NCBI GenBank assembly: GCA_016209275.1
Contig: JACQWM010000003.1
Location: 1 to 44,925 of the forward strand
Source of the DNA: Candidatus Omnitrophota bacterium
GTDB taxonomy: Bacteria; Omnitrophota; Gorgyraeia; Aquiviventales; Aquiviventaceae
Direction of reading: 5' to 3'
Length of the DNA: 44,925 nt
Numbering within the stretch: position 1 is the first letter of the stretch; every line of letters begins with the position of its first letter. The position numbers and the translations under genes are program-made. The notes under the pieces were generated by a model. That model was not told the DNA's origin. It ran no database searches and was given only the letters and a program-made list of their open reading frames with translations. Of this stretch, positions 33,985 through 41,296 are shown piece by piece.

Positions 33985-35025
33985 ATGCGGACGTATCAGT
34001 TTCACATCAGCGCCAAGGAAGCCGGCGCGCGGCTGGATCAGTATCTTGTTCAGCGCTTACCCCAGGAGGTCTCGCGCGCCATGGTCCAGCGGGGGATTCG
34101 CGCCAGGCTGATTCTCGTCGATGGCAAACCGGCAAAGGCCAGCACCAAGTTGCGCAGCGGCAGTGTCGTGACCGCGCCATTTGAGGAGCTGCCGGCTCCA
34201 GCGCGCGATGTGCCGCTGACACCTCAGGACATTCCGCTCGAGATTGTGTATGAAGATGACCTACTGCTCGTCGTGAATAAGCCGCCTGGCCTCGTCGTCC
34301 ATCCAGCGCCAGGGCATTGGGAGGGGACATTGGTCAACGCAATTTTATGGCATTTAGCAAGTCGCAAGGTCGCAAGGTCGCAAGGTCGCAAGGAATCGTT
34401 GGACCGGGCGGGGATTGTTCATCGACTCGATAAAGATACGTCTGGATTGTTGCTGGTGGCCAAGACGGCGCAAGCTCAACTCTCGCTCTCTCGTCAGCTC
34501 AAGGCGCGGACGGTCAAGCGGCGCTACCTGGCGGCGGTGGAGGGGCACCTTCCGCTGAATACCGGCACGATCAATGCGCCCCTGGGCCGCCACGCGACCC
34601 ATCGCAAGGAAATAACCGTCCGGCATCTGGGCGGCCGATCCGCGGTGACGCACTACCGCGTCCTCCATCGAGATAATGTCGAATGTCGAATGTCGAATGT
34701 CGATTCGTCATTCGGCATTCGTCATTCGAAATTAGCCTATTCAGTTGTCGATATCGCGCTGGAAACAGGCCGGACGCACCAGATCCGCGTCCACATGGCT
34801 CACCTTGGCTACCCAGTGCTGGGCGACCTCACCTACGGCAAGCGCCCGGCCAGTTTTTGGCACTCGCTCGGGATCACCCGCCAGCTCCTCCATGCCTACG
34901 CCATCCAGTTCCAGCACCCCTCGACCCATTGCTCCATGGCCCTCACCTGTCCGCCGCCTGAAGACATGGTGGCGCGGATTCCCCCTCAAGCGATATCAGA
35001 TATCAAACGCCCGTTTGATATCTGA
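33985..35025 (+). CDS. RluD-family 23S rRNA pseudouridine synthase
   Basis: 346 residues from ATG 33985. N-terminal S4 domain (AGARLDQYLVQRLPQEVSRA) and catalytic domain with IVHRLDKDTSGLLLVAKT (catalytic Asp), ETGRTHQIRVHMAHLGYPVLGD. Two repeat arrays are in frame: GCAAGGTC units (34357-34393) before GIVHRLDK, and an opposed GAATGTC array (34675-34732) before VVDIALETGRTHQ. The C-terminus (ISDIKRPFDI) is written by a GATATCA palindrome that supplies the stop. RluD versus RluC-like specificity not resolved. Confidence 0.92.
   Translation: MRTYQFHISAKEAGARLDQYLVQRLPQEVSRAMVQRGIRARLILVDGKPAKASTKLRSGSVVTAPFEELPAPARDVPLTPQDIPLEIVYEDDLLLVVNKPPGLVVHPAPGHWEGTLVNAILWHLASRKVARSQGRKESLDRAGIVHRLDKDTSGLLLVAKTAQAQLSLSRQLKARTVKRRYLAAVEGHLPLNTGTINAPLGRHATHRKEITVRHLGGRSAVTHYRVLHRDNVECRMSNVDSSFGIRHSKLAYSVVDIALETGRTHQIRVHMAHLGYPVLGDLTYGKRPASFWHSLGITRQLLHAYAIQFQHPSTHCSMALTCPPPEDMVARIPPQAISDIKRPFDI
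34357..34393. repeat. GCAAGGTC 8-bp array inside rluD-like gene
   Basis: GCAAGTC then three GCAAGGTC units, encoding LASRKVARSQGRK. Confidence 0.85.
34675..34732. repeat. opposed GAATGTC array inside rluD-like gene
   Basis: About four GAATGTC units then the reverse-complement type (ATTCGTC, ATTCGGC, ATTCGTC, ATTCGAA), forming a possible hairpin of about 25 bp within the coding sequence. Confidence 0.9.
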
Positions 35026-35080
35026 TATGGATTGCCCGTTTGATATCAGATATGAAATGACCATTTCATATCTGATATCG
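34991..35080. repeat. GATATCA-type palindromes, copies 3 and 4 in tandem
   Basis: Copy 3 arms 34993-35009 and 35012-35028 (17-bp perfect); copy 4 arms 35042-35059 and 35062-35079 (18-bp perfect). The stop of the rluD-like gene is in the right arm of copy 3. Confidence 0.95.
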
Positions 35081-35089
35081 CTCTTGCTC

Positions 35090-35119
35090 TTGACGCGGTT
35101 CCTGCCGATCAGGCATACT
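35090..35119 (+). promoter_or_regulatory. promoter of riboswitch-controlled operon
   Basis: TTGACG (35090-35095), 18-bp spacer, CATACT (35114-35119). Predicted transcription start about 35126, just before the riboswitch. Confidence 0.6.
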
Positions 35120-35137
35120 TCCACTGAATAGATAGGA

Positions 35138-35226
35138 AAGCCCTACTGACAAAGCCACACCTGTCGTAAGGCAGGGTCGGAAAGCCACAGCTCCCGATGA
35201 GGGAGGGCTGGGTTGCCAAAGGGGGA
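35138..35226 (+). promoter_or_regulatory. c-di-GMP class I riboswitch (GEMM-I)
   Basis: Core GACAAAGCCACACC (35148-35161), a stem CCTGTC/GGCAGG capped by a GTAA (GNRA) tetraloop, the joining strand CGGAAAGCCACAG, a second stem CTCCC/GGGAG with its receptor region, and the closing GGGCTGGGTTGCC (35205-35217). Outer CCCT/AGGG closes P1. At the position where cGAMP-specific variants carry A, this one has G (35154 by my hand alignment), so c-di-GMP is the expected ligand. Followed at once by a terminator. Confidence 0.9.
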
Positions 35227-35251
35227 AGACGTGAATCAGTACCGGCTGTTG

Positions 35252-35285
35252 AACCTAACTTGGGTCTACCTGGTTAGGTTTTTTT
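35252..35285 (+). terminator. riboswitch expression-platform terminator
   Basis: AACCTAAC (35252-35259) pairs with GTTAGGTT (35273-35280); a run of seven Ts ends at 35285. Lies between aptamer and first gene, so ligand binding presumably decides read-through. I cannot fix whether it is an ON or OFF switch by eye. Confidence 0.9.
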
Positions 35286-35339
35286 CTTACCTCGGTTGTG
35301 CCCTTTTTGAGTCCGATCGTACGCAACGAGGGCACACTC

Positions 35340-35999
35340 ATGCTTGAATCCCTCGTCTCCTCACGTATCCGGCGCACCCTCCTTGAGCACATCCTGACCC
35401 ATCCCCAAGAACCCTTCTACCTCCGAGGACTGGCCAAGCAGCTCAGCCTGTCCATCAGCCCGCTGCGGCGCGAGCTGCTCCGGTTGGAACATACCGGCAT
35501 GCTGAGCGCCGTGGAAGAGGGGAACATGAGGTTTTATCGCGTCAATGCAACATCGGCGGCCTTCCTTGAACTGAAAGATGTGGCCAAGTGGCCCCGCCTA
35601 CGCCAAGGCTTCGGCGGGCAGGCAAGTGGCCAAGTGGCCCCCAGCCCTCAGCTCCCAGCTCCAAGTGCCACAGCTCCGATCTTGATGGGTGTGATTTCTC
35701 CAACGCCACAGCAGCCATGGTGGAAGCAGCCGCTGTCGACCCCGATGCTTTTTTTATCGGCGGCACTTGGCATCGCCTTCCTGATCATGGTGGCCGGCGT
35801 GTCGTACCTCGCCGTCACAAATCAGCGCTTGGCGGTGGCCACCGAGCAGGCGGTCACCGCACCTCGCACCAGCGTGACCGTGGTCACATCCACCCCGTCG
35901 GCTTCGCGCACGATGCAGGGGAGTCGATGGCGCCTCGTCCCTGGCGCGATGGGCGGGTTTAGCGCGTCATCCGGCGGCGACTCCAACGAGAGCTACTAA
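35340..35999 (+). CDS. membrane-anchored winged-helix protein
   Basis: 219 residues from ATG 35340 (GAGGG upstream). Residues 1-70 form an ArsR/MarR-like winged helix (RRTLLEHIL...FYLRGLAKQLSLS...GMLSAVEEGNMRFYRVN). Residues about 82-113 are a linker written by repeat arrays and a REP-like element. A single membrane segment follows (about 136-159), then a Ser/Thr-rich periplasmic tail. First gene after the c-di-GMP riboswitch and immediately before the giant secreted protein; it may sense envelope state and bind DNA, but its target is unknown. Confidence 0.8.
   Translation: MLESLVSSRIRRTLLEHILTHPQEPFYLRGLAKQLSLSISPLRRELLRLEHTGMLSAVEEGNMRFYRVNATSAAFLELKDVAKWPRLRQGFGGQASGQVAPSPQLPAPSATAPILMGVISPTPQQPWWKQPLSTPMLFLSAALGIAFLIMVAGVSYLAVTNQRLAVATEQAVTAPRTSVTVVTSTPSASRTMQGSRWRLVPGAMGGFSASSGGDSNESY
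35577..35668. repeat. nested repeats: GGCCAAGT array, REP-like element, CAGCTCC array
   Basis: GTGGCCAAGTGGCC (from 35579) is interrupted by a palindromic CCCGCC...GGCGGGC unit (about 35593-35623) and resumes as AAGTGGCCAAGTGGCC; then CTCAGCTCCCAGCTCC heptamers. The frame stays open (RLRQGFGGQASGQ; SPQLPAPS). Confidence 0.85.
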
Positions 36000-36024
36000 C
36001 ATGAGGAAAGGTGGTGACTCAGTG

Positions 36025-39000
36025 ATGACGCGGTATGGGATGAAGCCCTCTTTCGCGTTGCGGATTCTGCTTGCCATCTCGCTCTCACTGGGCCACTTGG
36101 CCACTTGGCCACTCAGCCACTCGCGTGCGGAAGCTGCCATCCCCTGGATGATCAACTACCAGGGACGGCTGACCGACGCCACCGGCCAGGCGGTGACCGG
36201 GGCACTCACCATCACCTTCCGCCTGTATGACGCCGCCACCGGCGGCAGCGAGTTGTGGAAAGAGGATCAAAGTGTGAGCCTGGCCGAAGCGGACAGCGGG
36301 GTGTTTAACGTCATCCTCGGCAGCGTCACCGCGCTCTCCACAGTGGATTTCAACGCGCCGATGTGGCTGACGGTCCAGGTCTCCGGCGATACCGAAATGA
36401 GTCCGCGCCAGCGGCTGACCGCCAGCGGCTACGCGATGAACACGGATAAGATCGACAGCCTCGACTCGGCTAGTTTCATGCGAACCGACACCAGCACCTC
36501 CACCTCAGGCAAGATCACGATCACCCGCGCCGGCACCGCCCTCGTTATCACGCCAACGACCAATCCGGATGCCGGCACCAAGATGATCGATGTGCAAAAC
36601 GCCGCCGGGACGTCCAAGTTCAGCGTCGATAACGACGGCAATCTCACCATCGCCGGCGATGCGACCGTAGCCGGCGACGCGGCGGTGACCGGTGACGCGA
36701 CCGTCACCGGCAATCTGACCGTCTCGGGAACGATCAGCGGTGCCACCAGCGTGAATAGCACTACCGCGGCCACCTTTACCGTGGATAGCGACAACACCGG
36801 CGGCAGCGCGCCGGCCAACGGGGCGGGCCTGGTGATCGAAGGCGGTAGCGGCGATGCGTCGCTGCTGTGGAATACGACAACGTCAGACCTCACCCTCGAC
36901 AAGGACATGCGCTTAACCGGACAGAAGGCGTTGCGTCTTTCGGATTCTTCCGATTATTACGTGGGCTTCAAGGCGCCCTCAAGCTTATCCTCAAGTGTCG
37001 TGTGGACGCTGCCCAGCGCGGACGGGGCCGCCGATGGCTATGTGTTGAAAACCGATGCCGCCGGCGCGCTCTCCTTCGTGAACCCGTCTGGCATTTCCGG
37101 CGTTGGGGATATCACTAGCGTCGGCGATTGCACGGGCAGTGCGTGTTTCACCGGTTCCAGCGGCACAACACTCACCTTCAAAGGCTCCACCTCCGGCACG
37201 ACCACCCTCGCCCCTGCGGCGGCGGCCTCCGGCGTGCTGACGCTGCCGAATTCGACCGGGACCGTTGTGTCCACCGGCGATACCGGCACCGTCACCGGCA
37301 CGATGATCGCCGACGGAGTCAGCGGGGTGTCGCTGACGACGGATGTCACCGGAACACTGCCCGTCGCCAATGGCGGCACCGGAGCCGCCACGCTGGCCTC
37401 CAATGGGGTGGTCTACGGCAGCGGTGCTAGCGCGGTCGGCGTGACGACGGCAGGAACGACTGGCACCGTCTTGCACGGCAACACAGGTGCTGCCCCCTCC
37501 TTTAGCGCGGTCAGTCTCACGACAGATGTCACCGGAACACTGCCCCTAGCCAACGGCGGCACGAACAACGCGTCGCTCGACAACTGCGCCACCGGCCAGG
37601 TGCTGACCGTCACCGCAGGGGCAGTGGCGTGCACGGCGAATTCGGACGCCGGCAGCGGCACGACCAGCACCACGTTCACCATCGATTCCGACAACACCGG
37701 GGCTGTGGCCGATGGGGCAGGGATCGTGCTGGAAGGCACGACGGATAAGTCCATCTTATGGGACGCCACGAATACCGAGTTTGACGTCAATGACGACGTC
37801 GCCATCAGCGGCGACATGCTCATCGACACGACCGGCGATGCGGATCTGGCGGCCTCCGGCGGCAGCCCGTCGCTCACCAACCGGACGCAAAGCGAGGCCC
37901 TGGCGGTGGCGACCCAGCCCACCGCCGCGGATTCGGATGGGGTGATCAAACTCGGACGCGATAACAGCGAATGGGAGTACATCTGGTACGACAACTCCGC
38001 GCGAAGCGGGGCAGGCGAGTTCGTCTTCAGCAGCTCGCAGCGTGTGGAATCATCCAGCCCCGCCTACATGATGTTCTCGACGGGAGCCAACACCACGCGG
38101 TACGCCGTGAAGTTTGATCCGGATGTCACGCCCAAGACCATCAGCTTCGTGGAGATCACGAATCCAGGGGCCAGCCAAGTGGAGACGACGCTCCTGGAAA
38201 TGAAGGCCGGGGGGCGCATGGGGCTTGAGTTCAGCAACCTGGTCCGGAATGGGTCGTTCGAGGCCTTCAGCGCGCTGGAGAAATTCAAAGATGCCGGGTT
38301 TACCGGCGCCTATCAGCATGGCACCACCGCGGCGACGGCCTATGAAGGCGGTTGGGCCAACTTTGCGCCGGATGAATGGACCTGGGTGGCGGGGAATATC
38401 GTGCAGCACTCCCCGGTGATGCTCGCGAATGTGACCGCCAACATCACCGTGGATGCGGCGCATGGCAAGAGCGCTGTGGGCATTAAAGATACCGTCATCG
38501 GCACGTCCTACACGATCCCGAATGATGGCAACGATGGCGCGATCAAGCAGGTGATCAAGAACCTCAAGCCGAGCACGACGTATGCCGTTGGTGTGAAAGC
38601 GCTGGTCACCAACGCCTCAAACTCAACCGCCCTCGTGGATGTCATGGGAGACGATGCGGCCGGACAGCTCACACCGGTGGCTGTCAGCGCGGCCGGCCCG
38701 CTCTCGACGCAAGCGGCGACCTTCACCGACCTCATCGGCACCTTCAAGACCGACTCGCTGGCGAGCGACATTACGCTCTTCTTGCTCTGCCGCCAGACCG
38801 GCAGCCCGGTGGCCGGGGACATGTGCCGGTTCGATGCGATCCAGGTCGTTGCCAGCAAGTCGGTGCCGGAGTTTTCGCCAAACGCGATCGTGGATTCCGG
38901 CGACCAGACGATGTACGGCATGCTGCGCATCGGCCGCACGACGGATAGCGAAGGCGGGGCCGGAGGCGGGATCCTCGCGGTTGACCGTTTCGTGCGCACT

Positions 39001-41064
39001 CGAGGGGTTGAATTCTTCAGGGACGACCCTGGGTTTACCGGACAGGCTGGAGGCATGGGAACGATCGGTCCGCCAACCCCCACGGTCTCCAATCCTGGCG
39101 GCACCGCCGGAAGTCTCTCCTTAACGGCGAGCGGGACGTACACCGGCACCGACCCTGTCGAATATAAGGTCCGCATCAGCAGCAACGGCGCTCCGAATCA
39201 ATTTCGATGGAAGAAGCGCATCGTGCCGAGCGGCACCTTTGGGGCTGAAAGCTCTCCGATCAACGTCTCGATGTCGGCACAGACGCTTGAGCTCGGGGTG
39301 CAGGTGAGCTTTAACGCGACGACGGGCGGCAACGTCAACGACGAATGGATGTTCGGCGCCATGGGGACCGCGATGCAAAACTCCTATAGCTCCTTTACCT
39401 CCACGGCCTCCTACACCCCAGGAGAAAGCAAAATCTTCATGGATCCGTACACGAATAAGATGACGTTTCAAGAGGGCACCAAGCGGGTGACGCTCGATCA
39501 GATCACGGATGACGTGGCCCAGCCTGCCATTGTCGGCTACCCGACCTTCTCCGGCTCCGGCACGATGTCCATGAGCTCCTACGGGACCTACTCGGGAAGC
39601 ACCTCGCGAACCTACGAAGTCGTGATCGATGGCGATAATACGGCCGGCACCGCGAATGCGGATACGTTTAAATGGCGGCCCATCTCCAACGGGTCGTTCA
39701 CGCAGACCGGGGTGTCCATCCCGCAGAATGGCACGTCGGTCACGCTGGAAGACGGGATTCAAGTGTCGTTTTTCAGCTCGCCCTCGCTGAAATATAACGA
39801 AGGCGTCATGGGAGATAAATGGACCTTTAACGTGTATCCTGCCACGAGCGGCAGCTCAAAAGTCAATTCGATCCGTTCCTACGACAACGTGACGGACAAC
39901 CGGCCGCCCCTCAGCGGCGCGGTGCGGTTCGTCCAAGGCAGCAACATCACGCTCGGGCAGACGGGCCAGGACATCACCATCAACGCCTCGCTCGCCGGGG
40001 CCGACGGCAAAGATGTCAAATCCAGCGCCTCAGACAGCACGGCCACGTTCCTCGCGCAGGAAATCATCGGCGGCAGCGGGATCGGGGTGGCGGAGAGCGG
40101 GGCCGGCGACACGAAGACGCAAGTCTCGCTGGCGGCCCTTGGCGCGGACTGGAACCAGACCGGGGCGTACAGCATTGTGCTCAACAACACCGCAGCCGGC
40201 CTGAAGATCTTGGAAGCTGGTGCCACCCCCTCGCTCTACGGCATCTTCGATGTGGCGGATCTGAACAGCGCCGATAAGACGTATACATTTCCGGATGCCT
40301 CTGGGATCGTGATCACCACCGGGAATCTGGCCAGCATCACCGCCACCGGGACCGTTGGCACCGGCACGTGGAACGCTGACCCCATTGCGGCCGGCAAAGG
40401 CGGGACGGGTATTGACACGAGTGCTGCCACTGGTGTTGCGCAAATTGCCAGCGGCACGTGGTCGGTGTCTGGGACAACCGGCACCGGCAACATCGTGCGC
40501 GCGAGCTCGCCCACGATCACGACACCGACGATCAGCGGCGACATTACCTATTCCGGCGCACAGCCCAAGCGCACGGCCATTTTGACCTCGGCTGGTGCCA
40601 TCGTCGCACCCGCGGCTGGGTTTGCCGACCAGCTCCGCACCGACGGGACGAACTTCAGCTACTACACGCTGAACTTTGATCAAACCGCGCAGGAGAAAGC
40701 CTACTGGCAGTTTGTCGTGCCCAGCTCCTACACGGGTGCCACGGTGGACGTGACGATCTACTGGACCTCCGCGGCGACCAGCGGTGACGCGGTCTGGCGC
40801 GTGGCGACCGACAGCAAGGCGGCTGGGGCGGCATGGGACGCAGTACTCTCCGCGCCCTCAACCGCACCCCCGGCAACGACCAGCGGCACGGCCAATGCGG
40901 TCAACACGACCACCATCACCGGGGTCACCTCGGGATGGGCGCTGGATGAGCCCGTCGTCTTTGAGCTGATCCGCGTGGCGGCCGATGGCAGCGACACCCT
41001 CGCCGCCGACGCCAAGGTGCTCCAAGTGAAGATCGAGTGGACGTCTGCTACTGAGAGTGACTAA
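36025..41064 (+). CDS. giant secreted/surface protein with tail-fibre-like modules
   Basis: About 1,679 residues from ATG 36025 (AGGAAAGGTGG upstream; ATG 36001 would add 8). Signal peptide (FALRILLAISLSLGH...AEA), its middle written by an 8-bp array. Then a module beginning INYQGRLTDATGQAV and ending LTASGYAM, common at the start of bacterial surface and fibre proteins; low-complexity Gly/Ser/Thr repeats; VTGTLPVANGGTG-like tail-fibre repeats (near residues 440 and 500); a jelly-roll, CBM-like region from LVRNGSFEAF (about 740-950); and beta-rich repeats to the end. No membrane anchor or sorting signal seen. Probably an adhesin or sheath/fibre component under c-di-GMP control; function inferred only. 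Confidence 0.85.
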   Translation: MTRYGMKPSFALRILLAISLSLGHLATWPLSHSRAEAAIPWMINYQGRLTDATGQAVTGALTITFRLYDAATGGSELWKEDQSVSLAEADSGVFNVILGSVTALSTVDFNAPMWLTVQVSGDTEMSPRQRLTASGYAMNTDKIDSLDSASFMRTDTSTSTSGKITITRAGTALVITPTTNPDAGTKMIDVQNAAGTSKFSVDNDGNLTIAGDATVAGDAAVTGDATVTGNLTVSGTISGATSVNSTTAATFTVDSDNTGGSAPANGAGLVIEGGSGDASLLWNTTTSDLTLDKDMRLTGQKALRLSDSSDYYVGFKAPSSLSSSVVWTLPSADGAADGYVLKTDAAGALSFVNPSGISGVGDITSVGDCTGSACFTGSSGTTLTFKGSTSGTTTLAPAAAASGVLTLPNSTGTVVSTGDTGTVTGTMIADGVSGVSLTTDVTGTLPVANGGTGAATLASNGVVYGSGASAVGVTTAGTTGTVLHGNTGAAPSFSAVSLTTDVTGTLPLANGGTNNASLDNCATGQVLTVTAGAVACTANSDAGSGTTSTTFTIDSDNTGAVADGAGIVLEGTTDKSILWDATNTEFDVNDDVAISGDMLIDTTGDADLAASGGSPSLTNRTQSEALAVATQPTAADSDGVIKLGRDNSEWEYIWYDNSARSGAGEFVFSSSQRVESSSPAYMMFSTGANTTRYAVKFDPDVTPKTISFVEITNPGASQVETTLLEMKAGGRMGLEFSNLVRNGSFEAFSALEKFKDAGFTGAYQHGTTAATAYEGGWANFAPDEWTWVAGNIVQHSPVMLANVTANITVDAAHGKSAVGIKDTVIGTSYTIPNDGNDGAIKQVIKNLKPSTTYAVGVKALVTNASNSTALVDVMGDDAAGQLTPVAVSAAGPLSTQAATFTDLIGTFKTDSLASDITLFLLCRQTGSPVAGDMCRFDAIQVVASKSVPEFSPNAIVDSGDQTMYGMLRIGRTTDSEGGAGGGILAVDRFVRTRGVEFFRDDPGFTGQAGGMGTIGPPTPTVSNPGGTAGSLSLTASGTYTGTDPVEYKVRISSNGAPNQFRWKKRIVPSGTFGAESSPINVSMSAQTLELGVQVSFNATTGGNVNDEWMFGAMGTAMQNSYSSFTSTASYTPGESKIFMDPYTNKMTFQEGTKRVTLDQITDDVAQPAIVGYPTFSGSGTMSMSSYGTYSGSTSRTYEVVIDGDNTAGTANADTFKWRPISNGSFTQTGVSIPQNGTSVTLEDGIQVSFFSSPSLKYNEGVMGDKWTFNVYPATSGSSKVNSIRSYDNVTDNRPPLSGAVRFVQGSNITLGQTGQDITINASLAGADGKDVKSSASDSTATFLAQEIIGGSGIGVAESGAGDTKTQVSLAALGADWNQTGAYSIVLNNTAAGLKILEAGATPSLYGIFDVADLNSADKTYTFPDASGIVITTGNLASITATGTVGTGTWNADPIAAGKGGTGIDTSAATGVAQIASGTWSVSGTTGTGNIVRASSPTITTPTISGDITYSGAQPKRTAILTSAGAIVAPAAGFADQLRTDGTNFSYYTLNFDQTAQEKAYWQFVVPSSYTGATVDVTIYWTSAATSGDAVWRVATDSKAAGAAWDAVLSAPSTAPPATTSGTANAVNTTTITGVTSGWALDEPVVFELIRVAADGSDTLAADAKVLQVKIEWTSATESD
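36090..36122. repeat. GGCCACTT 8-bp array inside signal peptide of giant protein
   Basis: GGCCACTT, GGCCACTT, GGCCACTC, AGCCACTC; encodes GHLATWPLSHS at the end of the hydrophobic core and the cleavage region. Confidence 0.9.
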
Positions 41065-41190: not shown

Positions 41191-41214
41191 GTTGTTGACA
41201 CTCAAATTGCCCGG

Positions 41215-41283
41215 CCGGGTAGCTTGTTCCGGCTCCTTCTGCAGAGGGAGCTGGGAGATGGTGAAGCTGCCCGGTCTTTTTTT
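41215..41283 (+). terminator. extended nested-hairpin terminator
   Basis: Outer stem CCGGGTAGC/GCTGCCCGG (41215-41223, 41266-41274; one G-U), inner stem CCGGCTCC/GGAGCTGG (41229-41236, 41247-41254; one G-U), then TCTTTTTTT. Unusually large for a terminator; could be a structured RNA ending in one. Convergent with the TA module on the minus strand. Confidence 0.65.
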
Positions 41284-41296
41284 CCGGGTGAGCGAA

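Follow-up and report, generated by a model that had tools for sequence, protein, structure and literature searches.

In the 44,925-nucleotide stretch of Candidatus Omnitrophota DNA analysed here (the window), a riboswitch, a regulator with a predicted membrane helix and a giant protein constitute, as sequence comparison indicates, a real and conserved three-part operon. A promoter, a GEMM-I aptamer, a terminator, a gene for a 219-aa winged-helix protein and a gene for a 1,687-aa secreted protein follow one another in that order (Table 1), and the ATG of the giant gene lies 1 nt after the stop codon of the regulator gene, so the two are probably translationally coupled. An initial annotation had described a 'complete c-di-GMP-responsive surface operon': the parts are indeed kept as one unit, but 'complete' was too strong a word, and neither a sensor domain nor an export apparatus was recognised among the operon genes. 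On balance we favour the idea that this operon, with its product resembling the MAT fibres of Bdellovibrio, is under two layers of control, one exerted by the c-di-GMP aptamer and its terminator and the other by a membrane-fixed winged-helix autoregulator acting on its own leader. As far as we have found, the combination is new, its component parts being of known kinds; no description of a riboswitch–regulator–fibre unit was found in the literature (of which our coverage was incomplete).

Table 1. Features of the operon, with positions in the window
Feature	Position	Strand	Details
Sigma70-like promoter, TTGACG – 18 nt – CATACT	35090..35119	+	Direct reading; boxes 35090-35095 and 35114-35119
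c-di-GMP-I-GGC (GEMM-I) aptamer	35145..35221	+	RF03167, 64.7 bits (cut-off 59)
Intrinsic terminator, GAACCTAAC...GTTAGGTTT + T run	35251..35285	+	Hairpin 35251-35281, -14.8 kcal/mol
Inverted repeat, TGTGCCCT (35297-35304) / AGGGCACA (35329-35336)	35297..35336	+	Conserved; between terminator and start codon
Regulator, 219 aa	35340..35999	+	Predicted winged helix (about residues 9-82), linker, membrane helix (about 137-157), tail
Giant secreted MAT-like protein, 1,687 aa	36001..41064	+	Signal-peptide-like start, then N-terminal domain
MAT-type N-terminal domain	36139..36492	+	NF053851 (Bdello_MAT_N), E 5.1e-8, 32.9 bits (below curated cut-off of 60)
CBM4/9-like carbohydrate-binding region	38209..38862	+	PF02018, 20.1 bits (below cut-off of 25.9)

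Evidence that these parts belong together comes from a homologue search of 59 relatives and 293 class genomes. There was a clear gap between 21 regulator loci matching at E 3e-39 or better and the next matches (1.4e-26 and weaker), which covered the winged helix only. At every one of the 21 loci, found in 20 genomes of families f1, f10, f19 and f20, an aptamer immediately precedes the regulator gene and a giant gene immediately follows it, and the giant gene always encodes an IPxxINYQGRLTD domain, so the pairing of regulator and giant noted in the initial annotation is found, together with the aptamer, well beyond the window (as samples the loci are not independent, but the association extends over four families). 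No aptamer was present within 1.5 kb of any of 20 winged-helix-only loci, nor at any of 13 genes encoding the N-terminal domain of the giant in genomes that lack the regulator. Those weaker loci that were read in detail appear mostly to be of the HTH-MNT (winged-helix/nucleotidyltransferase) kind, with a small HEPN-like gene downstream. Some copies are imperfect: the regulator of G119 is cut by a contig end (its aptamer is present), that of G014 is truncated, and the aptamer of G035, with an insertion, reaches no more than 27 bits. Upstream of the operon there is a pseudouridine-synthase gene, both in the window and, by reading, in f19; this suggests that the locus has descended as a whole, and the operon has probably been inherited vertically within Omnitrophota. 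Regulator homologues in ten named records were labelled Candidatus Omnitrophota in nine cases and Planctomycetales in one.

The leader begins with the promoter, which was annotated by direct reading; a TTGAC / CATACT or TATACT pair occurs at the same spot ahead of the aptamer in most homologous leaders. The annotated GEMM-I aptamer was borne out when the whole window was searched with RF03167 (E 3.6e-13), and its P1 could be lengthened by the flanking CCCT (35141-35144) and AGGG (35220-35223). The nucleotide that sets ligand specificity, as read from our own alignment, by which the Vc2 numbering was carried onto this aptamer, is G35154, the last base of J1/2 before P2 (equivalent to G20 of Vc2); it is followed by a C whose pairing partner is the compensating G in GGAAAGCC. 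A G at this base marks the c-di-GMP type and an A the cGAMP type (A14 / G20A; PMC6274999). Since this base is G and the canonical D is present in the readable GGDEF proteins, c-di-GMP is the expected ligand. cGAMP was rejected as the ligand in view of the same G and because these GGDEF proteins (two weaker GGDEF matches were left out) have GHxxGD or GFxxGD and lack a Hypr-type serine. In its score, its c-di-GMP-type base, its downstream terminator and its association with a surface-protein operon the element resembles other GEMM-I riboswitches (RF03167), and it appears to differ from them in controlling a conserved pair of regulator and fibre genes. A GEMM-I aptamer also precedes and controls a transcription-regulator gene in the case of tfoY of Vibrio cholerae, for which neither a membrane anchor nor a fibre-gene partner is known.

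Which way would such a switch work? The terminator, annotated earlier and retained here as a hairpin followed by a T run, begins 29 nt past the aptamer and shares no strand with it. In Cd1, an OFF switch, aptamer and terminator coexist, whereas in pilM, an ON switch, they are mutually exclusive (PMC9262584); the layout in the window is of the Cd1 kind, in that both structures can form together. In f10 and in four f19 leaders, moreover, the 5' arm of the terminator is complementary to the P2 strand of the aptamer (z -1.9 to -2.8 against shuffles), more weakly so in G251 (z -1.3), and in three further f19 leaders the pairing at the same place requires G-U and is non-significant; within the window's own family, complementarity between terminator arm and aptamer is no better than in shuffles (z -0.35 for the window). 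From the likeness to Cd1 and the complementarity in the sister families, our guess is that the switch is OFF, with c-di-GMP favouring termination. We give a lesser but appreciable chance to an ON switch, in which c-di-GMP would block termination and high c-di-GMP would turn the fibre on: two riboswitches of the source genome (C54 and C14:20173) do build their terminators from the aptamer's own 3' strand, as in the pilM layout (PMC9262584), but the separation of terminator from aptamer in the window, with no strand in common, argues against it. Two other arrangements were rejected, namely an antiterminator that mimics P1 in the window's family (the terminator arm does look like the 5' strand of P1, but without co-variation and with a duplex energy within that of shuffles) and a second copy of the aptamer 3' strand as the window's platform (absent from 15 of 15 regulator leaders examined).

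The regulator is likely to start at ATG 35340, which has GAGGG 7 nt ahead of it, the alternative GTG 35298 being without an evident Shine-Dalgarno sequence. The AF2 model contains one long helix (residues 134-173) as well as a winged helix (pLDDT > 90 over about residues 10-80), and Foldseek relates the latter to the ArsR/MarR-type winged helices of NolR, HlyU, SmtB and others (probability 1.00, best E 2.5e-4). All Pfam matches of the protein were sub-threshold, and the match to NCBIfam HTH_metalloreg scored 19 bits (cut-off 55); as modelled, then, the regulator shares the ArsR/SmtB-type fold, and is not a member of the HTH_metalloreg family. Nearly all homologues have a single hydrophobic helix near residues 137-157 (less clear in G006), and the prediction thus agrees with the initial annotation of a winged-helix regulator with a membrane anchor. 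The linker between winged helix and membrane helix is of low complexity; the C-terminal tail includes SRWRLVPG, part of an SRWxLVPG-like motif conserved in homologues, and SPLRREL, the recognition helix, is one of the best-conserved segments. Because the winged helix must be able to reach DNA, the tail is presumably in the periplasm.

The predicted plan of an N-terminal winged helix, a single membrane helix and a presumed outer C-terminal part is also that of regulators of the ToxR/CadC type (PMC5430869). The window regulator differs from them in its ArsR/HTH-MNT-like winged helix (there was no Pfam match to the OmpR/PhoB-type Trans_reg_C domain), in its short C-terminal part, in which no sensor domain was recognised, and in being encoded within the operon that it would control. 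No paralogue of the regulator was found in the source genome; a candidate at C29:27406 matches only residues 71-118, in the linker region, and contains a stop. At 35608-35640 the linker-encoding DNA has a repeat-like stretch, GCTTCGGCGGGCAGGC followed by AAGTGGCCAAGTGG, which homologues lack there, and AAGTGGCCAAGTGG recurs early in the giant gene. We also note that a protein of G051 (L115, the one protein checked) combines an N-terminal winged helix and a hydrophobic segment with a TolC-type outer membrane efflux protein (OEP 6.6e-71), and that fusions of winged helix and TolC may, from open frames of 518-573 aa, occur in about 13 other class genomes.

A new feature of the leader is an inverted repeat. 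Its consensus, TGTGCCCTNNNWGRGNNC, has a single match in the source genome, which is the one in the window leader. Across 36 genomes searched, it matched in 17, comprising 16 of the 21 that bear the regulator (G119 counted) and G208, where the match is flanked by part of a regulator gene at the edge of a contig, and it was absent from the other 14 genomes without the regulator; among the matches listed it was always in the leader of the regulator operon. As a control, the reversed pattern gave one match in the 36 genomes. Near variants are present at the same position in G001, G021a and G251, G035 has an imperfect repeat only, and none was recognised in G045. G021b stands apart in having a different repeat (TGTCTCC/GGAGACA), and is also the sole copy with an altered recognition helix (SPVHREL, versus S/TPLRREL or SPLRRQL elsewhere), a co-variation that is a single case.

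We consider the repeat to be a candidate operator, probably for the regulator itself, and lean this way because the sequence of the arms is preserved across families. Its position 3' of both promoter and terminator would be odd for an operator. The other reading is of an RNA hairpin that masks the ribosome-binding site and so adds a second, translational layer, the winged-helix protein binding elsewhere or to this RNA. We think this rather unlikely, although several features of the repeat suit it. Its right arm overlaps the Shine-Dalgarno sequence (GAGGG, 35328-35332) in the window and its family; in f1 the arms are 24 nt apart, with the right one over that sequence; the arms are 98.9% pairable over 11 leaders; changes in f1 mostly preserve pairing through G-U, which was retained in four of five deviating cells; and the stem change in G021b is compensatory. 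Against this, f1 and f19 share the arm sequence itself, beyond mere pairing, and the f19 repeat, a tight palindrome of 19 bp, precedes the Shine-Dalgarno sequence rather than covering it, while column shuffles, which are powerless here because the changes are one-sided, gave no covariation support. The confinement of the repeat to the operon's own leader is the best evidence we have for the feedback from the envelope to transcription that the initial annotation suggested and that may or may not exist here, with an RNA hairpin as the alternative that could account for it. It is improbable that the winged-helix/membrane protein has no role in transcription and instead serves assembly or export of the fibre, with a winged helix taken over from the HTH-MNT type, for, while its gene always adjoins the fibre gene, its tail motif is kept and another Omnitrophota protein fuses a similar winged helix and hydrophobic segment to TolC, the recognition helix is among its most conserved parts and it is accompanied by a repeat unique to the operon.

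In the two-layer scheme that we prefer, the aptamer and intrinsic terminator would act ahead of the whole operon, termination being favoured by c-di-GMP. The first gene would then provide a DNA-binding winged helix held at the inner membrane by one helix, and the target of this protein would be the inverted repeat of its own leader, the sole such site found in the source genome. Such a local autoregulator might adjust the operon, or position it at the membrane, during synthesis and export of the giant fibre. More tentatively, one may imagine a regulon of one: the winged-helix protein, tethered to the membrane, would bind no leader but that of its operon and, joined to a c-di-GMP riboswitch, would tie synthesis of a giant fibre for recognition of prey or host to the second messenger on the one hand and, on the other, to the operon's state or position at the membrane. 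Omnitrophota are uncultured, and this conserved union of a c-di-GMP-type aptamer, a MAT-like fibre and a membrane-helix regulator provides candidates for how they attach to other cells and how attachment is switched, as well as a simple one-site system for membrane-tethered gene control. A predatory or parasitic life has been proposed for many Omnitrophota, whose giant ORFs may serve in adhesion, in a study that mentions neither riboswitches nor c-di-GMP (PMC10066038).

The initial annotation of a giant, fibre-like secreted protein is upheld by the signal-peptide-like start and the MAT-like N-terminal domain (an alternative start at ATG 36025 would give 1,679 aa). NF053851 is the sole NCBIfam model matched by each of 14 homologous N-terminal domains (13 from the operon and one from a paralogue in the source genome), at best with E 3.5e-12. 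MAT fibres of Bdellovibrio bacteriovorus combine an invariable predicted N-terminal domain with varied adhesive ends (PMC10769870). The giant resembles these fibres, which Bdellovibrio uses in prey recognition, in its homologous N-terminal domain, long fibre-like body and carbohydrate-binding-type region, but it scores below the family cut-off, is longer, lies behind a riboswitch and belongs to Omnitrophota rather than Bdellovibrionota, and no S74, TNF-like or lectin end was recognised in it; on sequence grounds it appears to be a distant relative of the MAT fibres, not a member of the family. The match to PF02018 exceeds the cut-off in homologues from G021 (26.1) and G001 (26.7), the structure model of the region in the window being poor (pLDDT 49), and one homologue, in G035, has YadA head repeats. 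The middle of the giant matches other homologues; its end region, which had no Pfam match, resembles that of G010 and G011 alone. Because contig ends truncate many of the homologues, the comparison makes no clean case for swapped ends. Sub-threshold Rfam matches inside the giant gene (Xoo1 and MIR531) were dismissed as chance. Past the gene, at 41198-41290, there is a strongly folded RNA-like stretch (z -5.3), and similar DNA was found only in G021, once right after that genome's second giant gene.

The source genome (1.8 Mb) gave 21 aptamer-family matches, 12 of them above the cut-off, and by reading most of its GEMM-I elements precede genes for pilin-type and secreted proteins. Just downstream of 9 of its 21 GEMM-I elements (for example L023 in C13, L024 in C62, L027 in C51 and L030 in C30), and of 7 of 29 from relatives (for example L068, L071, L077 and L086), there is a second copy of the aptamer 3' strand, which in the source genome forms the 5' arm of the terminator, so that a single 5' half might be contested by two alternative 3' halves. 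At L031 (C14, 7910-8055 and 8174-8315) tandem aptamers precede one gene, the first having G at the specificity base (c-di-GMP type) and the second A (cGAMP type); by reading, A also occurs there in C52, C28 and C53, and no Hypr-type GGDEF was seen among the readable proteins. At L026 (C29:9842 and C29:12867) a terminator-like hairpin lies within the beginning of the pilin-type coding region that directly follows the aptamer. Finally, a dispersed palindromic repeat with the core ATATCAGATAT/ATATCTGATAT (63 cores in the 256 kb examined) is present just upstream of the promoter in the window (34993-35080) and also in the variable loop of five aptamers (C29:9842, C29:12867, C14:19909, C2 and C56).
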